Shown piece by piece: positions 1,388 through 53,310 of a stretch of DNA of 64,000 bases (positions within the stretch are counted from its first letter, which is position 1; every line of letters begins with the position of its first letter). The position numbers and the translations under genes were made by a program. Origin of the DNA: Acidobacteriota bacterium (GTDB taxonomy: Bacteria; Acidobacteriota; Terriglobia; Terriglobales; Acidobacteriaceae). The DNA is taken from positions 62,001-126,000 of the forward strand of contig PJLO01000008.1 in assembly GCA_003010405.1 (NCBI GenBank), given 5' to 3'. The notes below the pieces were generated by a model, which did not search any database, was not told the origin of the DNA, and saw nothing but the letters and a program-made list of their open reading frames with translations.

Positions 1388-1411
1388 GGTAATAATATAC
1401 TTGACAAAATA
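1388..1411 (+). repeat. Left terminal inverted repeat, element 1
   Basis: Starts GGTAATAATATACTTGAC; 20 of 24 bases match the right end at 4440-4463. Its first 18 bases are identical to both ends of the second element at 50.6-53.3 kb. It carries the -35 hexamer of the transposase promoter. Confidence 0.88.
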
Positions 1412-1429
1412 ACCTGATTTCGCTATTCT
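1401..1429 (+). promoter_or_regulatory. Transposase promoter embedded in the terminal repeat
   Basis: TTGACA at 1401-1406, a 17-base spacer, then TATTCT at 1424-1429. The -35 box lies inside the terminal inverted repeat, so the transposase promoter is partly built from the transposon end. Confidence 0.7.
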
Positions 1430-1453
1430 GTTCTTGTAATGGAGCAGAAAGCC

Positions 1454-2413
1454 ATGAACGAGCCGACAACACTTCAAGAAGCGATCATCTACTTTGCTGA
1501 TCCCGTGAACTGCCGCGAGTACCTAGTTGCACGCCGTTGGCCGATGGGCGTCACATGTCCGCGATGTGGAAGCACTGATGTTCTGTTCTTGGAGAAGTAC
1601 AACCGCTGGCACTGTCGGGCGAAGCATTCCGCTCCGCAGTTCACATTGAAGACTGGCAGTATCATGGAGGATTCTCCCATCAGCCTCGACAAGTGGCTCA
1701 TGGCAATGTGGCTGGTTGTGAATAGCAAGAACGGCATCAGCAGCTATGAAATTCATCGGTCTATTGGCGTAACGCAAAAGACGGCGTGGTTTCTAAACCA
1801 TCGGATTCGCCTAGCCTTTGGCCTTGAGCCGGAGGAGAAGTTGTCGGGTCCGGTCGAGATGGACGAAACCTTCATCGGCGGCAAGATCAAGAATATGCAC
1901 AAGAACAGAAAGCCAAAGCCTCTCGCCAATCGCACTAAACGGCTTTCAGGAACCATCGGGAAGACTATCGTAGTCGGGATGCTAGAGCGCAACGGGCGCG
2001 TCAAAGCCGAAGTGGTGATGGAGCGGACTCAGGCAGTGTTGCATGAACTGATTCACAGAAATATAGCTCCGGGAACCACACTGATTACTGATGAACACGG
2101 CGGATATAGGGGAACCAGTTTCGAGCATCAGATCATCAACCATGCCAACGAATACGTGCGCGGACAGGTTCACACCAACGGAATCGAGAACTTCTGGAGC
2201 CTGTTGAAACGCGGTTTGAACGGTACTTACGTTTCGGTAGAGCCTTTTCATTTGTTCCGCTACATCGACGAACAGGTATATCGTTACAACAACCGTAAAA
2301 TGAATGATTCTCAGCGATTTGATCTGGCAGTGCAAGGTATCATTGGAAAGCGGTTGACGTTCGATGAACTCACGGGTAAAGTTAGCCGTTCAACAGAGGT
2401 GCGACCCTTCTGA
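1454..2413 (+). CDS. IS1595-family (ISXO2-like) transposase
   Basis: DDE-type transposase of about 319 residues. An N-terminal zinc ribbon (CPRCG, then WHCRAKH in place of a clean second CxxC) is followed by a helix-turn-helix-like stretch and the ISXO2-like catalytic domain: MDETFIGGK, TDEHGGYRG and NGIENFWSLLKRG give the conserved acidic and Asn positions. An in-frame ATG lies 15 bases upstream at 1439, but the start at 1454 is preceded by a better placed GGAG and matches the start of the related transposase at 50657 (MNEP.TLQEAI). It looks intact. Confidence 0.93.
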   Translation: MNEPTTLQEAIIYFADPVNCREYLVARRWPMGVTCPRCGSTDVLFLEKYNRWHCRAKHSAPQFTLKTGSIMEDSPISLDKWLMAMWLVVNSKNGISSYEIHRSIGVTQKTAWFLNHRIRLAFGLEPEEKLSGPVEMDETFIGGKIKNMHKNRKPKPLANRTKRLSGTIGKTIVVGMLERNGRVKAEVVMERTQAVLHELIHRNIAPGTTLITDEHGGYRGTSFEHQIINHANEYVRGQVHTNGIENFWSLLKRGLNGTYVSVEPFHLFRYIDEQVYRYNNRKMNDSQRFDLAVQGIIGKRLTFDELTGKVSRSTEVRPF

Positions 2414-2457
2414 ACCCTAGACAGGGGCGCGGCAAGAAAAGCAAAAAGTGAAGGGCC

Positions 2458-3192
2458 ATGCCTACTATTAAATTCCGGGTGCGGTTTAACGAGGGACGCA
2501 AAGGCGTCCCGCTCGAAAAGCTAGAGAAGATTGCGGCAGAACTGCGCCGCTTTCTTGCGAGCATCTCCTCTGACTTAGAGTTTCCGGATTCGATTCAATG
2601 GCTTGGCTCTGAATTTCAGAACAAATCGCTATCCTATAACCTGCAAGGAGATCGCGAGATTACCCCGGAACAGTCGCGGCATTTCAATGCTGGCGTGGAG
2701 ATGCTGACCAAGGGTGAACTTCCCCCGTTCCTTACGGACACGACGGCCAGCACGTTCTATGGAATTGCTAAAGTTCTTGATCCAGGGGAGCGATTTAGGA
2801 TTGGACTTTATCCAAAGGGTAGAATTCGCTGGTGCGACCTAACCCAAGAAAAAGTTGTTCCGATTCGCAAGGCGGAATCTTCTATGCGCTATATTGGTGC
2901 GATTCAGGGCAGATTTCATGCGTGGTATGCAGAGAGTACGCCTCCATTTTTCTATATCAGGGATCTCACCTCGCACGACTTAATTAAATGCGAATACCGG
3001 GACGAAGCGATGTACGACGAAATCCTCAAGGCCATACAGGACAAAAGAAGCGTTCTCCATGTTCATGGAGAAATTCGCGTCAATCGCTCCAGTAAGCAGA
3101 TAGAGACGGTTTCCGCCGACAAGATGTTTGGTGTGCGACCGTTCACAATGAGGGATGTGGATAAATTCCTGAATTCGGGGAACGTCCAGTGA
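2458..3192 (+). CDS. Unknown protein, partner of the PIN gene (passenger)
   Basis: Protein of 244 residues that I do not recognise. The N-terminal part reads VRFNEGRKGVPLEKLEKIA, followed by a Leu-rich helix and WLGSEFQNKSL; the rest is mixed alpha/beta with no membrane segment. The GTG start of the PIN gene overlaps its stop codon (GTGA), so the two are translationally coupled. That arrangement suggests a two-component module in which this protein could be the antitoxin or regulatory partner, an inference from context only. It lies inside the transposon, 44 bases after the transposase. Confidence 0.75.
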   Translation: MPTIKFRVRFNEGRKGVPLEKLEKIAAELRRFLASISSDLEFPDSIQWLGSEFQNKSLSYNLQGDREITPEQSRHFNAGVEMLTKGELPPFLTDTTASTFYGIAKVLDPGERFRIGLYPKGRIRWCDLTQEKVVPIRKAESSMRYIGAIQGRFHAWYAESTPPFFYIRDLTSHDLIKCEYRDEAMYDEILKAIQDKRSVLHVHGEIRVNRSSKQIETVSADKMFGVRPFTMRDVDKFLNSGNVQ

Positions 3193-3791
3193 CAGAGAAA
3201 TCATTGCCTCGAATCTACGCCGATGCGAACATGATTATCGAGCTTGGAAAGAAGGGGCGCGGATGGCACACTCTAAACAGGGCGGACGAAATCTGGTTCT
3301 TTGAGCAGATACTTAGAGCTTCGGGTGATGAAGTCCTAGAGGCTTACACTTCTTCAATTTCTTTATCTGAATGCACGCACATCAAGGACAACAGCGATCC
3401 CAATAATCTCAAAACTGTATATGACAAAGATGTACAGGAGTTTTTCAGGAATCTTCTTTGCTCTGGAACTCTAATCAAGATCGTGCAAGATTCGGTGTTC
3501 GTTGCAGAGGCGGGAAGAGACTTACTCTGGAAACATGATTTACGCCTAAGCGGGATGGATGCAATTCACCTCGCGTCGGCGATTGATGCCAATTGCAAAG
3601 AATTCCTTACGTGGGATGAGCACATGAATGATCCAAAGAATACTCAAAAGGTAGCCGTTCTCCAGAAGCTCGGCATTCGTGCGATCCTTCCATCACAATC
3701 TGAAATCCTACCATCGCAGTATAGACAAGCAAGGCTCACAGGATTGCAGCCAGTCTCGGCTATAATTCCAGATGTCCCATGCGGAGAGTGA
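3189..3791 (+). CDS. PIN-domain protein, putative ribonuclease (passenger)
   Basis: PIN-domain protein of 200 residues, the fold of VapC-type toxins and other metal-dependent RNases. Acidic residues sit at the expected places: YADANMII near residue 11-18, SLSEC in the middle, GMDAIHLASAI, and TWDEHM after it. The GTG start overlaps the upstream stop by 4 bases. It is longer than typical VapC toxins (about 130-150 residues), with a roughly 40-residue C-terminal extension. The upstream partner does not resemble the usual short VapB antitoxins. Toxin activity is inferred from family and context. Confidence 0.82.
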   Translation: MTEKSLPRIYADANMIIELGKKGRGWHTLNRADEIWFFEQILRASGDEVLEAYTSSISLSECTHIKDNSDPNNLKTVYDKDVQEFFRNLLCSGTLIKIVQDSVFVAEAGRDLLWKHDLRLSGMDAIHLASAIDANCKEFLTWDEHMNDPKNTQKVAVLQKLGIRAILPSQSEILPSQYRQARLTGLQPVSAIIPDVPCGE

Positions 3792-3956
3792 ATGAAACCA
3801 CTACCAGTACCGCACGTTCCCGGAAACACAGACGCCGAACGCTTTGATAATGCCGTCCGCAAGATATTTACCGTCTCCAAGGACGACATTCTGAAGGCCG
3901 AGGCGAAGTGGAAACAATCACGTGCTCGAAAGCAGCGAGCGAAGAAAACGGCCTGA
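3792..3956 (+). CDS. Small basic-tailed protein (passenger)
   Basis: ORF of 54 residues starting one base after the PIN stop codon. It has an acidic/hydrophobic core (AERFDNAVRKIFTVSKDDI) and a Lys/Arg/Ala-rich tail ending RAKKTA. A similar layout, with an F..A...[IV][FL].VS core and a basic tail, occurs in the 59-residue product at 51606-51785 in the second transposon. Function unknown; the close coupling to the effector gene suggests an accessory role in the module. Confidence 0.65.
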   Translation: MKPLPVPHVPGNTDAERFDNAVRKIFTVSKDDILKAEAKWKQSRARKQRAKKTA

Positions 3957-3980
3957 CCACGGGCCAGTGAATGACAGCAG

Positions 3981-4006
3981 AACCCGCCAGTAGAGGCGGG
4001 TTTTCT
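3981..4006 (+). terminator. Rho-independent terminator after the PIN module
   Basis: Perfect 8-bp stem AACCCGCC / GGCGGGTT with a 6-base loop, followed by a T-rich run. It closes the transposase-244aa-PIN-54aa transcript. Confidence 0.75.
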
Positions 4007-4018
4007 ATTGGAGTGAGA

Positions 4019-4177
4019 ATGTACGTGCAATTGACTACAGACGATAAACAAGAACTGGTACGTTTTGTGAAAGACCATGCTGCTACGCTAGGTCAGTCGA
4101 GAATTGAAATTCGCGAAAGCGGAAATGGTCAATTCGTTGCTGAACTAATGCCATGCAGCGAGCCTAGTCTTTCTTAA
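4019..4177 (+). CDS. Small hypothetical protein (passenger)
   Basis: Product of 52 residues beginning MYVQLTTDDK, preceded by a good ribosome site (ttggagtgag). The sequence is amphipathic and lacks Cys or membrane segments. The 3' end overlaps the convergent 72-residue gene by 14 bases. I do not recognise it. Confidence 0.45.
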   Translation: MYVQLTTDDKQELVRFVKDHAATLGQSRIEIRESGNGQFVAELMPCSEPSLS

Positions 4178-4382
4178 AGTGCTTGTGCCATTTCACGTGA
4201 ATGGCTATATGTTCCAAGATAAAACGAGGATGTTCTCCGCAATGGTTGCACGGCGGAAAGTGCTCGCCATAAACGCAGGTGACTTCGTGTTCGTCATGGT
4301 GAACCGTGTCATGGACGACCCTGTAGATACCAGAGTGTGGAACTTCCTGCCCCGGCTTAAAAACATCGCCAACATTCGCCAT
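4164..4382 (-). CDS. Small putative zinc-ribbon protein (passenger)
   Basis: Product of 72 residues, rich in His and Cys, with the pattern FKPGQEVPHSGIYRV, then HDEHEVTCVYGEHFPPC and CNHCGEH. It resembles a widespread family of small GIY.V.HD / FP.C..C proteins without a defined role. The Cys/His pattern suggests one bound zinc. It is read inward from the right transposon end, downstream of a promoter formed partly by the terminal repeat. Confidence 0.7.
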   Translation of the reverse strand: MANVGDVFKPGQEVPHSGIYRVVHDTVHHDEHEVTCVYGEHFPPCNHCGEHPRFILEHIAIHVKWHKHFKKD

Positions 4383-4421
4383 ATTTGCCCTCTTAAGGTT
4401 GACCCCATTGTGCTACTCAGG

Positions 4422-4450
4422 ATTACATCTGTCTAGGTTTATTTTGCCAA
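4422..4450 (-). promoter_or_regulatory. Inward promoter from the right transposon end
   Basis: On the minus strand TTGGCA (4450-4445) is followed after 17 bases by TGTAAT (4427-4422), 40 bases before the start of the 72-residue gene. As at the left end, the -35 hexamer is part of the terminal repeat. Confidence 0.6.
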
Positions 4451-4463
4451 CTACATTATTGCC
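4440..4463 (-). repeat. Right terminal inverted repeat, element 1
   Basis: Read inward it begins GGCAATAATGTAGTTGGC and pairs with 1388-1411 with four mismatches. Confidence 0.85.
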
Positions 4464-4471
4464 TTTACTAG
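4464..4471. repeat. Target-site duplication, right copy (element 1)
   Basis: TTTACTAG, identical to 1380-1387. Confidence 0.9.
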
Positions 4472-7418: not shown

Positions 7419-8432
7419 TTAGAAGCCTTCGAGGACAATCTTTCCGATGGAGCGATTGGACTCGATGGCGGCGTGCGCTTTGCGGAGGTTTTTGGCATTG
7501 ATGTGTCCGGCGGCAGTGCCGAGCGTGGAGTGTATAAGTCCTGCATCGACAAGTGTCGATATCTGTTCGAGAATGCGATGCTGCTCGATCATGTCAGCAG
7601 TTTGGAAGGTGGAGCGAACGAACATCAGCTCCCAGTGCAGGGAGGCGGATTTGGGTTTCAGCTTGTTGGCGTCGAGCGAAGGTGGCGAGTCAATCAGGGC
7701 AAATGCTCCCTGCGGAGCAATGATGTCGACAATTTGGTCATAGTGCTGATCGGTGTGAGTGAGGCTGATGACGAAATCCGCATACGGAAAGCCCAGCTTG
7801 CGAACCTCGTCGGCAAGTTTCTTCGAGTGATCGACAATGTGATGGGCTCCCGCTTTGCGTACCCACTGGTGCGATTCAGGGCGCGAGGCGGAACCAATGA
7901 TGGTGAGTCCGGTGAGCCGGTGGGCCAGTTGTACGAGGATGGAACCGACTCCGCCGGAGGCTCCAATGACGAGGAGAGTGCCGGCCTGCTGCGGCTTGCC
8001 GAGAGGGATGCGGAGGCGGTCGAAGAGCAACTCCCAGGCGGTGAGCGAGGTAAGCGGGAGGGCGGCGGCTTCGGCAAAGGAGAGAGACTTCGGCTTGTGA
8101 CCGACAAGGCGCTCATCGACGAGGTGAAACTCGCTGTTGGTGCCGGGGCGCAGGATGGATCCGGCGTAGAAGACTTCGTCACCAGGATTGAACAGAGTCG
8201 CGTCGGGCGCGGTGGAGAGGACTACGCCAGCGCAATCGTAGCCAAGAATTTTGGGGTGCGCTTCGGTTCCTTGCTCCCTCATGCGGACCTTGGTGTCAAT
8301 GGGATTGACCGATACGGCATGGACGGCGACGAGGAGATCGCGGCCCCTGGGCTCGGGTGTGGGGAGTTCGAAATCGAAGAGAGATTTCGGGTCAGACGGG
8401 GGCAGGGACTTCACGTAACCAACGGCTTTCAT
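7419..8432 (-). CDS. Zinc-binding-dehydrogenase-family (quinone oxidoreductase-like) protein
   Basis: Medium-chain dehydrogenase/reductase of 337 residues. The GroES-like N-terminal domain (VAVHAVSVNPIDTKVR, LGYDCAGVV) is followed by a Rossmann NADPH domain with LLVIGASGGVGSILVQLA. It lacks the structural and catalytic zinc Cys/His sets, so it belongs with the zinc-free quinone-reductase-like branch despite the usual family name. Substrate unknown. Confidence 0.85.
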   Translation of the reverse strand: MKAVGYVKSLPPSDPKSLFDFELPTPEPRGRDLLVAVHAVSVNPIDTKVRMREQGTEAHPKILGYDCAGVVLSTAPDATLFNPGDEVFYAGSILRPGTNSEFHLVDERLVGHKPKSLSFAEAAALPLTSLTAWELLFDRLRIPLGKPQQAGTLLVIGASGGVGSILVQLAHRLTGLTIIGSASRPESHQWVRKAGAHHIVDHSKKLADEVRKLGFPYADFVISLTHTDQHYDQIVDIIAPQGAFALIDSPPSLDANKLKPKSASLHWELMFVRSTFQTADMIEQHRILEQISTLVDAGLIHSTLGTAAGHINAKNLRKAHAAIESNRSIGKIVLEGF

Positions 8433-8675
8433 GAGCGCTCCTTACGGAAGTGATGTCTCCGGGAGACGGAGGCTGAGCTGGAAGTGTAGCGCAAGCAGAC
8501 GGGGCGCAGCGCTGATATTCATAAAGAATGCAAAGATTCGAGTTTTCGATTAATCGAGCTCTGGCCTGTTTCAAAAGAGCTAATATCACGGGGAAGAAAA
8601 AGGTTGCCGAAGTAGCGTAGCTCGCCGTCGACACCTCTGCTCTTCATTCATACATTCCAAGGAGGAGGTGCATGC

Positions 8676-8870
8676 ATGACGGAGTCCCATGCGCGGAAAG
8701 ACGAAAACGTGGAACAAAAGCCAGCGGCAGCTTCCGAGAAAGAGAGCCGCTTCCACCGCCATGTCAAAGTGATCATTGCGCGTGTTCTCGCAAAACAGCG
8801 CGCGGATACTAAAAAAAGGCCTATTCAATACCTGGATATTGAAAACGAGGGTACGGAACCGTGGCACTAA
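8676..8870 (+). CDS. Small hydrophilic hypothetical protein
   Basis: Product of 64 residues, highly charged (ESRFHRHVKVIIARVLAKQ), without Cys or membrane segment. A very strong ribosome site aaggaggagg lies 8 bases before the ATG, which supports it being real. It precedes the Mth938-like gene by 27 bases in the same direction and may be co-transcribed. Not recognised. Confidence 0.55.
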   Translation: MTESHARKDENVEQKPAAASEKESRFHRHVKVIIARVLAKQRADTKKRPIQYLDIENEGTEPWH

Positions 8871-8897
8871 GCTGCCAGTCCCAGTGGAAAACGTTTT

Positions 8898-9245
8898 ATG
8901 AAATTTGAAGAGTTTTCATTCGGCCGATTGCGGATCGATGGCACCGATTACGAGTACGACGTGGTGATCGACCGCGGAAAGATCAGCAGGCGCAAGAAGA
9001 AAGCGTCAAAGAAGTATCGCGAGTCGTTTGGGCACACGCCACTTTCGCTGGAGGAAGACATACCCTGGAAATGCCGCCATCTGGTCATTGGAACAGGTGA
9101 GGGCGCACTGCCCGTGATGAATGAGGTAAAGCGCGAAGCCAAACGGCGCAAGATTGAACTACTGGTTCTGCCGACGGAAAAAGCGATTGAAATACTGAAC
9201 AAGCTGCCGGAAGATACAAACGCAATTTTGCATGTTACCTGCTGA
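8898..9245 (+). CDS. Mth938-like domain protein
   Basis: Protein of 115 residues of the Mth938/NDUFAF3-like fold (DUF498). It carries LRIDGTDYEYDVVID at the front, HLVIGTGEGALPV in the middle and LLVLPTEKAIEILN near the end, the usual layout. Eukaryotic relatives help assemble respiratory complex I; the bacterial role is undefined. A terminator follows. Confidence 0.8.
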   Translation: MKFEEFSFGRLRIDGTDYEYDVVIDRGKISRRKKKASKKYRESFGHTPLSLEEDIPWKCRHLVIGTGEGALPVMNEVKREAKRRKIELLVLPTEKAIEILNKLPEDTNAILHVTC

Positions 9246-9256
9246 GTCAGGAGTTG

Positions 9257-9303
9257 GGCCACCCGCGCGGGATGAGGTTCGCGAGGGTGGCCTTTCTGTT
9301 TTT
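9257..9303 (+). terminator. Rho-independent terminator
   Basis: GGCCACCC / GGGTGGCC stem over a GC-rich loop, then tttctgtttttt. Confidence 0.75.
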
Positions 9304-9358
9304 TGGAAAGGCTTTGGAAAGATCGCAAAGACCCAAGCCGGATGCTACGGCCAGACGT

Positions 9359-11473
9359 CTACAGAGCGGCGGCGGCTTGTTTGCGCTGGCGCGATTGGAT
9401 CTCTATGTAGATGTTCAGGAGCGAGACGGCAGCGGGAGTTACACCGGGGAGTCTCGATGCCTGGCCAATGGTTTGTGGACGCAGGCGGGTTAGCTTCTCC
9501 TTCATCTCGCGGGAGAGGCCGCTGATGGTGGAGTAGTCGAACCACGCAGGAATGGTCTTGGTTTCGGCTTTCTTGAGGCGCTCGATGGCCTTCTCCTGTT
9601 GCTGGAGGTAACCTGCGTACTTTACTTCGGTTTCAACGGATTTCAATTCAACCCAGATTGCGGAAGGGAGCTGGGAGCCACATTGGCAGGAGGCAGGCAG
9701 ATCTGCGGGGGCCTCGTCTTGCTCGTTGTTTTCGTTTTGTCCAAATTCCAGTTCCCCACTCAAGCCAGAAGAGGGCTTGAATGGGCCACCCGCCCGTGAG
9801 GCCGCTTCGGGGGATGTTTGATCCCACATCTGCTGACTGCGGCAGATGTGGGGCACGATGCCGTCATGGGAGAAGAACTCGGGGGCGAGCTGGCGGCAGA
9901 TGGGGACCAGGTCTTCGATGGTGATTTCGGGGCGGCGCAGGAGTTGAGCCCAGGTTGATCCGGATACGCCGCTGATTTTTTCAGCCAGTCCGGGGGGGAG
10001 ATCGGCTCCGGCGCGCTGGGTTTCAAGCTGGCGGCGCAGGTGCTCCATGCGGCGCTGCTTGGCCTCGTAGTTCGCCCATGCTTCGTCGCTGATGAGGCCG
10101 ACGCGGCGGCCATAGGGAGTGAGGCGGCGGTCGGCGTTGTCGATGCGCAGGTGAAGGCGGAATTCGGCGCGCGAAGTGAACATGCGATAGGGTTCGACGG
10201 TTCCCTTGCTGATGAGGTCGTCGATGAGTATGGCGGTGTAGGCTTCGCTGCGGTTGAGGGTCAGGGGCGGCTCGCCTTTGATGGCCAGGGCTGCATTGAT
10301 TCCGGCCATCAGGCCCTGGCAGGCGGCTTCCTCGTAACCGCTGGTGCCGTTGATCTGTCCGGCAAGATAGAGGCCGCGAATTTTGCGGGTCTGGAGAGTG
10401 CGCTCCAGCTCGGTGGGATCGATGGAGTCGTATTCGATGGCGTAGCCGGGCCGGAGCATTTCGGCGCGCTCAAGGCCTGGGATAGAAGCGAGCATCGCAA
10501 ACTGAACATCGACGGGGAGCGAAGTGGCCATGCCGTTGATGTAGACCTCATGCGTGCTGGTGCCTTCTGGTTCAAGATAGAGCTGGTGGGTTTCCTTGTC
10601 GGGAAACTTCACGATCTTATCTTCAATCGAAGGGCAGTAGCGCGGGCCGATGGAGCGGATCTGACCGCTGTACATGGGCGAGCGATGAACATTCTCGCGA
10701 ATGATGCGATGGGTTTCAGGCGTGGTGAAGGCGATGTAGCAGCTGACCTGGGGCTGCGTGATGTTGAGGGTGCGGAAGCTGAAGGGCGTGGGATCGGCGT
10801 CGCCGGGCTGTTGCTTGAACCGTGACCAGTCAATGCTGCGGCCATCGAGGCGCGGAGGGGTTCCGGTCTTGAGGCGGCAATGGCGGAGGCCGAGCTCTTT
10901 GAGGTTTTCGCCAAGAAGAATGGAGGCAGGCTCGCCGTTGCGTCCGGCGGTATAGGTCTGCTCGCCACAGTGAACGACCCCGTTGAGGAAGGTTCCTGTG
11001 GTGACGACAATGGCTCGAGCCGAGACATTACGTCCATCGCGCAGCCGGAGGCCCTCCACGCGGCGATTGTCGCCCTCGCCCGCGATGATCAGCTCGGCGA
11101 CTTCGGCTTGCTTGACCTGAAGGTTGGGCTCGCTTTCCAGGACCTCGCGCATTTTTACGCGGTACTTTTGCTTGTCGCACTGAGCGCGGGGCGACCAGAC
11201 GGCAGGGCCGCGGGAGGTGTTCAGGAGACGGAACTGGATGCCTACGGCATCGGTGACCTCTGCCATGATGCCGCCGAGAGCGTCGATCTCGCGAACTATA
11301 TGTCCCTTGGCGATTCCGCCCACGGCGGGGTTGCAGCTCATCTGCGCGATGAGATCGGCGTTAAGTGTGTAAAGAGCGGTGCGCAGCCCCATGCGCGCGG
11401 CGGCCATGGCCGCTTCGCAACCGGCATGACCGGCTCCGACGACGGCAACCTCGAAGTGTTCGGAAAAGCTCAT
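9359..11473 (-). CDS. mnmG: tRNA uridine 5-carboxymethylaminomethyl modification enzyme MnmG
   Basis: FAD-dependent GidA/MnmG that works with MnmE to modify the wobble uridine of tRNAs. 704 residues, longer than the usual roughly 620-640. The FAD motif [12 protein letters not shown] is at residues 10-21, with [45 protein letters not shown] and the C-terminal SGLSREM.EKL and [18 protein letters not shown]. The extra length is about 70 residues between APEFFSHD and [11 protein letters not shown] and is partly encoded by a hairpin repeat at 9823-9852. The frame stays open and catalytic motifs are intact, so it is probably functional. Confidence 0.95.
9823..9852. repeat. REP-like hairpin inside mnmG
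   Basis: CCCACATCTGC, 8-base loop, GCAGATGTGGG, within the mnmG coding sequence (residues about 541-551). The same arms occur between genes at 11611-11640. Confidence 0.8.
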
Positions 11474-50588: not shown

Positions 50589-50613
50589 GGTAATAATATA
50601 CTTGACTAACCAA
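50589..50613 (+). repeat. Left terminal inverted repeat, element 2
   Basis: Begins GGTAATAATATACTTGAC; exact inverted match to 53286-53310. Contains TTGACT, the -35 of the transposase promoter (17-base spacer to TACTCT at 50625-50630). Confidence 0.9.
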
Positions 50614-50656
50614 CCTTTTTGTTCTACTCTGCTTCTTAGTTAGAGAGGCAAGCGTT

Positions 50657-51595
50657 ATGAACGAACCGAAAACCTTGCAAGAAGCGATCCTGTACTTTAG
50701 TGACGAACAGACTTGCATCAACACTGTCGCAGCCCTGCGCTGGCCTGATGGCGTAACCTGCCCCGCTTGTGAAGGTAAAGAGCACTATTACCTAGCGACT
50801 CAGAAGCGCTGGAAGTGCAAGGAGTGTGGCCGTCAGTTTTCGGTAAAGATCGGCACCATCTTTGAAGACTCTCCGATCAAGTTAGACAAGTGGCTCACTG
50901 CGCTATGGATGATCGTAAATTGCAAAAATGGCGTCAGTTCTTATGAGGTTCACCGCACTATCGGAGTCACTCAGAAATCGTCATGGTTCATGCTGCAAAG
51001 GCTTCGCTTGGCGCTCCAGAGCGGTTCTATTACGAAGCTTGGCGGTTCTGGAACTCCCGTCGAGATGGATGAAACCTTCATCGGCGGCAAGGTCAAGAAC
51101 ATGCACAAAGCTAAGAAGCCCAAGGCTGCAACCAAGAGCCGTGGCATCGTTGGCAAAACTATCGTGGTCGGGATGCTGGAACGCAATGGCCGTGTTAAAG
51201 CACAAGTCGTAGAGAGCCGCACTCAAGCCGTTCTGCATGAACTCATCCGCAAGAATGTCGCCACCGGAACCATTCTCATGACCGACGAACATGGCGGATA
51301 TAGGGGAACCGACTTTGAGCACGAAATCATCAACCACGCCAACGAGTACGTGAATGGCTTGGTCCATACCAACGGCATCGAAAACTTCTGGTCACTGCTC
51401 AAGCGCGGATTAAACGGCACCTACGTTTCAGTCGAACCGCTCCATCTCTTCCGCTACATCGACGAACAGGCTTTCCGCTTCAACAACCGCAAACAAAAAG
51501 GCCAGAATCTAAACGATTCTGACCGCTTCCAAATTGCGCTATCGCAGATTTCCGGAAAGCGCCTGACCTATGCTGAAGTAACCGGAAAGTGCTGA
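50657..51595 (+). CDS. IS1595-family (ISXO2-like) transposase
   Basis: Transposase of 312 residues, clearly related to the one at 1454 but not identical. N-terminal zinc ribbon with two clean pairs (CPACEG, WKCKECGRQF), then SYEVHRTIGVTQKS and the catalytic MDETFIGGK, TDEHGGYRG, NGIENFWSLLKRGLNGTYV. ATG start after agagaggcaag. The frame is intact. Confidence 0.94.
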   Translation: MNEPKTLQEAILYFSDEQTCINTVAALRWPDGVTCPACEGKEHYYLATQKRWKCKECGRQFSVKIGTIFEDSPIKLDKWLTALWMIVNCKNGVSSYEVHRTIGVTQKSSWFMLQRLRLALQSGSITKLGGSGTPVEMDETFIGGKVKNMHKAKKPKAATKSRGIVGKTIVVGMLERNGRVKAQVVESRTQAVLHELIRKNVATGTILMTDEHGGYRGTDFEHEIINHANEYVNGLVHTNGIENFWSLLKRGLNGTYVSVEPLHLFRYIDEQAFRFNNRKQKGQNLNDSDRFQIALSQISGKRLTYAEVTGKC

Positions 51596-51605
51596 GAGCG
51601 TCCAG

Positions 51606-51785
51606 TCAGCCCTTATCGCCGCAAGCGCGGCGCGAAGAAGAACGAGGCCGGGGCTTAGCAGCCTTAGCCTTTTTCTCTAATTCCACTCTTTCCTTCATCT
51701 CGGCGTGAGACACGCGCAACACTTTACCTAAAGCTTCGACGAAAGCGCCGTACTCATTGCTACTGGATGGTTCTACTTTGCTCAT
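51606..51785 (-). CDS. Small basic-tailed protein (passenger)
   Basis: ORF of 59 residues, MSKVEPSSSNEYGAF at the start, core FVEALGKVLRVSHAEM, then a Lys/Ala and Arg/Ser-rich tail. Overlaps the 3' end of the 306-residue gene by 26 bases. The core and tail resemble the 54-residue product at 3792-3956 in the other transposon. Function unknown. Confidence 0.6.
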   Translation of the reverse strand: MSKVEPSSSNEYGAFVEALGKVLRVSHAEMKERVELEKKAKAAKPRPRSSSRRACGDKG

Positions 51786-52680
51786 TGAAACCTTCCAACT
51801 TCGCCAAGAAAAACGATTCTGGCTTTTGTCGTTTCGGCACGATCATTCGAGTCGTCTTGATGATCGTCGCACGATAACGGGATGGGACCGCCGCAGCTTG
51901 CTTAACCGTGATGGCGTCACTAAACGTTCCCTCTATTTCCTCTCCATCATCACAGTTTAGCTTAAAGGTTTTCGCCTCGCTATTCACAGCTACCAAATCG
52001 CCATCCTTAACCAGAATGGTCTCAGTTGTCGTCTCGACGATGTTCTTCTGCAACGTCGCCAGCTGTTCATACGATGCTTTTACTCGACGCTTTGTCTGCC
52101 GATCTGAATCCCATTCCAATCCTATTCCATATTTATGTTGGATGTGAACGTCTAACCACTCATTCACCGCCTCCATTGGCTGAGGCCCCAGCATTCTAGC
52201 AATTTCATTAACCCGTTTCGATTCGATTAAATCGAAAACCATTTCCGATGCATCATCAACCGGATTGCCTGTCAGCAACGCTGCGTGCTGCTCAGGAATC
52301 CTTGGCAACGTGACAACCACGCCAACTGATCCGCTGAAGCAATAGCTATAGCCGAGCACTCCTGGCAGACCTTCTTTTGTAAGCTTCGAATAGATGCTCA
52401 CAAAGAGCTTCTCGAAGGCCGCCCAAGCCTCAGCGATTCCCCCGAGAGAGGGTAACATTTCAGGATCAATCGTATAACGGTAGACTTCCTGTTCCTGAAT
52501 GGCCGCCAGCTCTAAGAATTCAGCTTCAAGGCTCTTACGCACATTATTCAATGTGCGGAGATTGGCCGCTAGAGAGCGACTATAGCCTCTATTTTCGGGC
52601 AGCAAGATTGCATTCTCTACCTGAGCAATAAGCGCATTGGTGTCTTGCAGCCTTTTTTGAATTTGCTCACGAGCGTTCAT
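51760..52680 (-). CDS. Unknown protein, partner of the nucleotidyltransferase-like gene (passenger)
   Basis: Protein of 306 residues that I do not recognise. It begins with a coiled-coil-like helical segment (residues 1-65) and continues as a mixed alpha/beta protein; the C-terminal third is beta-rich (LVKDGDLVAVNSEAKTFKL, RYRATIIKTTRMIV). No membrane segment. Its start codon overlaps the stop of the preceding gene (TAATG), so the two are translationally coupled. Confidence 0.75.
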   Translation of the reverse strand: MNAREQIQKRLQDTNALIAQVENAILLPENRGYSRSLAANLRTLNNVRKSLEAEFLELAAIQEQEVYRYTIDPEMLPSLGGIAEAWAAFEKLFVSIYSKLTKEGLPGVLGYSYCFSGSVGVVVTLPRIPEQHAALLTGNPVDDASEMVFDLIESKRVNEIARMLGPQPMEAVNEWLDVHIQHKYGIGLEWDSDRQTKRRVKASYEQLATLQKNIVETTTETILVKDGDLVAVNSEAKTFKLNCDDGEEIEGTFSDAITVKQAAAVPSRYRATIIKTTRMIVPKRQKPESFFLAKLEGFNEQSRTIQ

Positions 52681-53216
52681 TAGGCACCCGCTCCCCTTGC
52701 GTCGGCAGCTTGTGGCTGTTTGATCGCAATCACAGCAATGCCCTTAGGGTCACGAGTCACATAGCTATGACCAAAGTCTTCGTTGAATCCAGCAATCGTG
52801 GCGTCCGAGAGCACACGCAATATCGATGACGGAGGATATTCCAATACGGAATGCGTATCGCACAAGTATTCGGCGCGATACGCCTGCTTTTTTTGAATAT
52901 CGCCAAGAGCTTCAAGAACTTCTATCTGCTCGTTCGTGCCAGCATCCAAGAAGTGAGACGGAGCTATCAAAAGCAGATCGGCATCTTCTGGGCTTTCCTT
53001 GCTCGTCAGGAAACTACCATCTACCCACAATTCGGATTCGTCGATTCCAATATCCAATAGTCTATCGACGAAACGCTCAAGTCCAGCCATGATCTTCTGA
53101 CGCACCTGTGAATTGGGGAATTCATCGACACACATCCTCCTCAATTCATCTAGCCTCATTGGACGCAACCCCTCGGCCAGAAGTGGAGGATATTCCTTTT
53201 TGTGTTGATTCCCCAT
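52680..53216 (-). CDS. Nucleotidyltransferase-like protein (passenger)
   Basis: Protein of 178 residues from ATG at 53216 (MGNQHKKEYPPLL), preceded by gggggtt; the frame reaches 53297. The central LWVDGSFLTSKESPEDADLLL carries a GS...D.D arrangement typical of minimal polymerase-beta-type nucleotidyltransferases, similar to DUF6932 proteins. Such enzymes occur as toxin or antiphage effectors. It is the first passenger gene read inward from the right end of element 2, and readthrough from hisC would also enter it. Confidence 0.72.
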   Translation of the reverse strand: MGNQHKKEYPPLLAEGLRPMRLDELRRMCVDEFPNSQVRQKIMAGLERFVDRLLDIGIDESELWVDGSFLTSKESPEDADLLLIAPSHFLDAGTNEQIEVLEALGDIQKKQAYRAEYLCDTHSVLEYPPSSILRVLSDATIAGFNEDFGHSYVTRDPKGIAVIAIKQPQAADARGAGA

Positions 53217-53285
53217 AACCCCCAAACGATACAAAAACCAGCAATCCCAGTCAACAACTCCGCACCAATATTGACACTGATATAC

Positions 53286-53310
53286 TTGGTTAGTCAAGTA
53301 TATTATTACC
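53286..53310 (-). repeat. Right terminal inverted repeat, element 2
   Basis: Exact inverted copy of 50589-50613. Read inward it supplies TTGACT at 53297-53292; the -10 further in is poor (TCAATA or neighbouring registers). Confidence 0.9.

Follow-up and report, generated by a model that had tools for sequence, protein, structure and literature searches.

The gene pair and its IS1595-family carrier

In the window, which is the whole 64,000-nucleotide stretch of soil-bacterial DNA analysed here, two overlapping genes of the forward strand lie between a transposase gene and a small ORF. The upstream gene, u (2458–3192), starts with ATG and codes for a protein of 244 amino acids, in which an N-terminal domain (residues ∼1–130) and a predicted OB-type domain (∼142–231) can be told apart. 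The downstream gene (3189–3791) starts with GTG and codes for a PIN protein of 200 amino acids (Pfam PF01850) having acidic residues at positions D12, E61, D124 and D143. As the original prediction had claimed, the two ORFs overlap in a GTGA (3189–3192), where the stop codon of u (TGA) and the start codon of the PIN gene (GTG) have bases in common. A GGGGA lies immediately 5' of this GTG, and in the second copy of the pair (locus L181, described below) the purine-rich GAGGTGAGG stands ahead of the corresponding PIN start. Purine-rich stretches in front of both GTG codons fit a possible translational coupling of the PIN gene to u.

The PIN protein matched the Pfam family with an E-value of 1.2e-6 (29.6 bits; cut-off 23.6). 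Its four acidic positions were identical in the sole full relative, the one from L181, which itself scored below the same cut-off (20.3 bits against 23.6). The PIN catalytic residues predicted for this gene were, in this respect, borne out. A structure prediction made from these two sequences only had a mean pLDDT of 33. The PIN protein had no NCBIfam match, so no curated VapC model recognises it, and no PADLOC match. For u, there was no match in Pfam, NCBIfam, PADLOC or PHROGs, in agreement with the earlier statement that the partner carries no familiar antitoxin motif. It was also said to be larger than VapB, and its 244 residues indeed put it above the usual antitoxin size.

Both genes are carried by a mobile element. 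A stretch of 3076 bp (1388–4463) ends in imperfect terminal inverted repeats (GGTAATAATATACTTGACAAAATAACCT / GGCAATAATGTAGTTGGCAAAATAAACCT) and is bounded by two exact copies of an 8-bp target-site duplication, TTTACTAG, at 1380–1387 and 4464–4471. Its transposase (1439–2413, forward strand, 324 aa) is an IS1595 (ISXO2-like) DDE enzyme (PF12762, 4.9e-41; PF12760, 6.7e-9; NF033547, 4.3e-56). The DDE_Tnp_IS1595 domain, the inverted ends and the 8-bp duplication place the carrier in the IS1595 family, and the transposon location that had been proposed for the pair now has its two ends at 1388 and 4463. The gap between the transposase gene and u is only 44 bp, and u and the PIN gene are without a clear promoter of their own. 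A promoter-like TTGACA-17-TATTCT (1401–1429, forward strand; 10 of 12 matches) lies upstream of the transposase gene and overlaps with the left inverted repeat. Such sites were no commoner than in shuffled sequence, and as a candidate for a transposase-side promoter it is suggestive only.

The element holds more genes than the original prediction had described, notably a small basic ORF directly behind the PIN gene (3792–3956, forward strand, 54 aa, beginning MKPLPVPHVPGNTDAERFDNAVRKIFTVSKDDILKAEAKWKQ). A YjzC-like ORF is also present (4164–4382, reverse strand, 72 aa), which matched Pfam PF14168 at 1.3e-5, with 25.8 bits against a cut-off of 25.

In two congeners (L192 and L194), the metallo-hydrolase gene and parB, which flank the element in the window, are close together with no element in between. 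These loci show a site free of the element in relatives; the exact empty target is not seen there. In both congeners a small lysine- and cysteine-rich ORF was observed between the metallo-hydrolase gene and parB, and the window site showed no such ORF.

A second copy of the pair and the cargo of sister elements

A second complete pair was found on a 57-kb viral contig (L181), which was identified in a scan for the beginning of the small ORF. There it lies in another IS1595 element (7427–10231) having its own 8-bp duplication, CAAATTAG, and the gene order transposase–u–PIN–small ORF is the same as in the window element. The u homologue (8649–9455) has 28% identity (tblastn E-value 2.6e-33) and the PIN homologue (9445–10002) 37–40% (2.7e-33), while the transposases are 61% and the small ORFs 67% identical. 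In L181, u and the PIN gene overlap by 11 bp, and the PIN gene and the small ORF by 4 bp. Identities between the two copies at the first, second and third codon positions were 0.42, 0.57 and 0.31 for u and 0.52, 0.65 and 0.28 for PIN. The third position being lowest and the second highest in both genes is as expected for proteins under selection. The recurrent gene order, together with codon identities of this type, argues that the pairing is not due to chance. The exact element ends, the element-free congener site and this second, diverged pair in another IS1595 lineage agree with the mobile two-gene module that had been predicted.

A third trace of the pair (L081:1-1500, genome G055) is an IS1595 deletion derivative flanked by TTCGCAAT. 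It consists of an end sequence, the C-terminal ∼48 residues of a PIN relative (44% identity) and two copies of the small ORF, in this order. The known copies are two complete pairs and one remnant, and the co-occurrence of u and PIN is hence based on few events. Single-sequence searches with u in genome contigs, and with u and PIN in viral contigs, plasmids and phages, gave no match. A guessed consensus, on which no claim is based, likewise had no match in plasmids. Searched with profiles built from both copies, 280 relatives, viral contigs and 398 genomes from the phylum to which L166 belongs yielded no additional complete pair, the distant-phylum searches having been run without a positive control.

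Transposase relatives were present in 58 of the 120 genomes searched. To collect sister elements, many loci of transposase relatives were fetched and viral contigs were scanned for the end sequence. Matching ends and at least seven of eight duplicated bases defined an element; this rule gave 48 candidates, 44 of which were used in the census. The cargo varies among these sisters. Pfam matches among 51 cargo proteins were to DUF3800 (nine proteins; reported to be a nuclease domain with an RNase H fold, PMC10910872), SocA_Panacea (two), SLFN_AlbA_2 (two) and AIPR, N6_N4_Mtase, DUF6932, Mrr_cat, SIR2_2 and HTH (one each), and NCBIfam added a match to a Y4mF-type antitoxin. Counts of such 'defence-like' cargo are descriptive, having no background set. 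The AIPR protein, from L069, matched AbiU over its whole length (6.5e-155). In L094:2770-3797 a SocA_Panacea protein (3.7e-20) overlaps a 124-aa protein of no known family, possibly forming a toxin–antitoxin pair. In L165:421-2298 the cargo begins with an AAA_15/AAA_21 ATPase, continues with a 182-aa protein that has a PIN-like start, and ends at the small ORF. This second protein had no Pfam match, and a comparison with the window PIN protein detected no relationship between the two. PADLOC matches to pAgo in L071 and L170 were rejected as Argonaute, as the proteins look like SLFN_AlbA_2 / HATPase_c_4. No Rfam RNA was found inside the elements; tRNAs were seen in the flanks of two loci only.

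The window itself holds a second element of the same IS1595 group (50589–53310), whose duplication agrees in seven of eight bases and whose transposase frame is interrupted by one TGA. Its cargo is another two-gene cassette on the reverse strand, in which the gene of a DUF6932 protein (52680–53297) overlaps by one base that of a 306-aa partner (51760–52680); the conserved small ORF is at 51606–51785, also on the reverse strand. In L171 a relative of the 306-aa protein (30% identical) is found immediately ahead of the small ORF. Homology between u and the 306-aa protein of the window was considered and rejected, hhalign having found nothing.

Using a profile of 18 small ORFs, we found an ORF of ∼55 aa in 43 of the 44 duplication-bounded elements, whatever the cargo; as 18 of these 43 had trained the profile, the independent count is about 25 of 26, and some of the scores are weak. 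In 27 of 39 classified elements, covering both cargo orientations, it follows the largest cargo ORF on the same strand. It had no family match. We considered whether it might be the antitoxin of the PIN protein. This was ruled out because the small ORF accompanies nearly all cargo types, and it is taken to be a component of the element or the cassette.

In a transposase tree of 43 rows, where some of the cargo labels were assigned by eye, the window element falls in a clade of four (support 100/99), whose other members carry DUF4145-type, DUF6932-pair and HEPN-like cargo. The L181 transposase clusters with those of elements that carry DUF3800, methyltransferase and other cargo, and the starred branches of the tree force at least two changes for the u–PIN label. 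As its two carriers are in different supported clades with neighbours of other cargo, u and PIN were kept or gained together, and the pair behaves as one unit in a cargo-swapping group of transposons. Its presence in two lineages may reflect a double acquisition or an old inheritance with replacement elsewhere; the tree fits both and cannot tell them apart. On either view the two genes remained linked as other cargo was changed.

Domains of the partner protein

Over its N-terminal ∼130 residues, u shows homology to the N-domain found in a set of longer proteins from one acidobacterial family, with E-values down to 6e-11 for a single sequence and 1e-26 for a two-row profile. In these relatives (L002-L006) the N-domain is followed by a membrane segment and then by a C-terminal domain with matches to annotated RodZ proteins. 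An OB-type domain was absent from them, and the loci fetched showed no neighbouring PIN gene. An N-domain profile (A2) had matches in only 2 of 396 genomes of the phylum. As regards a partner regularly occurring without PIN, which would refute the proposed pairing, the outcome was divided: the N-domain alone occurs in five genomes of one acidobacterial family, while the full combination of N-domain and OB-type domain was found only beside a PIN gene, in two of two cases.

The predicted model of u had a mean pLDDT of 66, the OB part being at about 60. Its C-terminal domain runs in the order strand–strand–strand–helix–strand–strand. Matches of the model in Foldseek and VIA-align are concentrated on about residues 141–231, and among the solved matches listed over this region nearly all are OB proteins, including SSB, RPA, PriB and the Asp-, Asn- and Lys-tRNA synthetases (anticodon-binding domains). 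The best of them reach a Z of 8.3 and a Foldseek E-value of ∼0.01, where a Z of about 8 can also reflect a common arrangement. The C-terminal part of u (∼142–231) is likely to be an OB-type domain according to this model. The OB fold is often used for binding of single-stranded nucleic acid or tRNA, and it also mediates protein contacts.

Possible functions and relation to known systems

The reading that we tentatively put forward, close to an even call and a little on the doubtful side, is that the PIN protein is an RNase which, together with its cognate OB-fold partner, forms a toxin–antitoxin-like module or a defence effector carried as passenger cargo by IS1595. The PIN match with its four acidic positions, the OB-type structural matches, the recurrence in L181 with overlapping gene ends in spite of low protein identity, and the separate transposase clades of the two carriers were counted for a PIN RNase with a cognate partner. 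Conflict genes in the same slot of sister elements (AIPR/AbiU, SocA/Panacea, the DUF6932 pair, a DNA methyltransferase and AAA_15) were also counted for it. A toxin–antitoxin or defence role is plausible. Counted against it were the small number of copies, the moderate model of u, the occurrence of the N-domain elsewhere without PIN, and the lack of a DNA-binding antitoxin motif and of PADLOC or NCBIfam matches.

We infer binding, inhibition, RNase activity, toxicity and a trigger that would fit together as follows. u would be made first and would bind the PIN protein co-translationally by means of the GTGA coupling. Bound u would hold the PIN protein inactive, and its OB-type domain would give the complex its target or trigger. 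Once u is titrated away or occupied by a ligand, the PIN protein would cut RNA, and this cutting would either stabilise the element or stop phage growth.

In the main rival explanation, which is possible but rather unlikely, the nuclease consists of two proteins and u serves as its recognition subunit. The OB-type domain of u would bind foreign or stress-linked nucleic acid and bring the PIN protein there, so that the pair would work as a defence or interference effector and poisoning of the cell would not be needed. The OB-type fold predicted at 142–231, the size of u above that of usual antitoxins, its lack of an operator-binding motif and the many nuclease-like or nucleic-acid-modifying cargos of sister elements (DUF3800, AIPR, methyltransferase, SLFN_AlbA_2) would all suit such a subunit. 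However, OB folds also serve in protein contacts, and neither u nor the PIN protein matched a PADLOC model of a known anti-phage defence system.

That the pair is neither toxin nor defence and serves the housekeeping of the element, for example in RNA processing or in the control of transposase expression, seems distinctly unlikely. The short gap behind the transposase gene and the lack of a clear separate promoter would allow co-transcription, but close relatives of the transposase are without the pair and have unrelated cargo in the same slot, and the nearly universal part of these elements is the small ORF, not u–PIN. It is very improbable that two unrelated genes having no joint function were picked up as chance passengers. 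Although the cargo of this IS1595 group is very varied, a second, distant element has the same genes in the same order and again overlapping, with both proteins apparently under selection, and this second copy disfavours chance.

Beyond the preferred reading of a PIN RNase restrained by its partner, we propose, with more doubt than conviction, that this IS1595 subgroup, which is common in Acidobacteriota and occurs in phage contigs too, is dedicated to shuttling cassettes for toxin–antitoxin and defence functions. Its transposase, TTGAC-bearing ends and ∼55-aa accessory protein would stay constant while the cassette is exchanged, and OB-partner/PIN would be a new two-gene RNase module. If the group does swap conflict cassettes, the slot beside the small ORF would be a simple marker for uncharacterised toxin–antitoxin and defence genes; many of the cargo genes in those slots match no named family. 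Small DNA-binding antitoxins are the usual partners of PIN toxins, and a two-domain partner of OB type, if true, would mean that a PIN nuclease can be restrained or aimed in a different manner.

In the literature covered, outside of which most subscription papers fell, we found no link of IS1595 to DUF3800 or to Acidobacteria and toxins. Nor did this literature contain an account of conflict cassettes that vary while a small ORF stays the same, which is a weak indication that such an arrangement is new.

Like VapBC, the window pair consists of a partner gene and, translationally coupled behind it, the gene of a PIN protein, both on a mobile element. Unlike VapB, u is a protein of 244 aa with a RodZ-like N-domain and an OB-type fold, and it has no AbrB, RHH or HTH antitoxin domain; nor does the PIN protein match any NCBIfam VapC model. 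Assignment of the pair to VapBC was rejected on these grounds, a VapB-type DNA-binding domain having been sought in Pfam and NCBIfam. With the acidobacterial RodZ-like membrane proteins u shares the homologous ∼130 N-terminal residues, whereas those proteins have a membrane segment and a RodZ-type C-terminal domain in place of the OB-type domain.

The carrier resembles other members of the IS1595 family in its DDE_Tnp_IS1595 domain, imperfect inverted repeats, 8-bp duplication and passenger genes behind the transposase. A review (PMC5704250) covers the 8-bp repeats typical of IS1595 as well as the lincomycin-resistance element tISCpe8, and passenger genes in IS1595 elements are already known (Siguier, Gagnevin and Chandler 2009, as cited in that review). 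The present group differs in that the cargo changes from copy to copy, with many families of toxin–antitoxin or defence-like type, and in that the ∼55-aa ORF accompanies it in 43 of 44 elements, those that trained the profile included.
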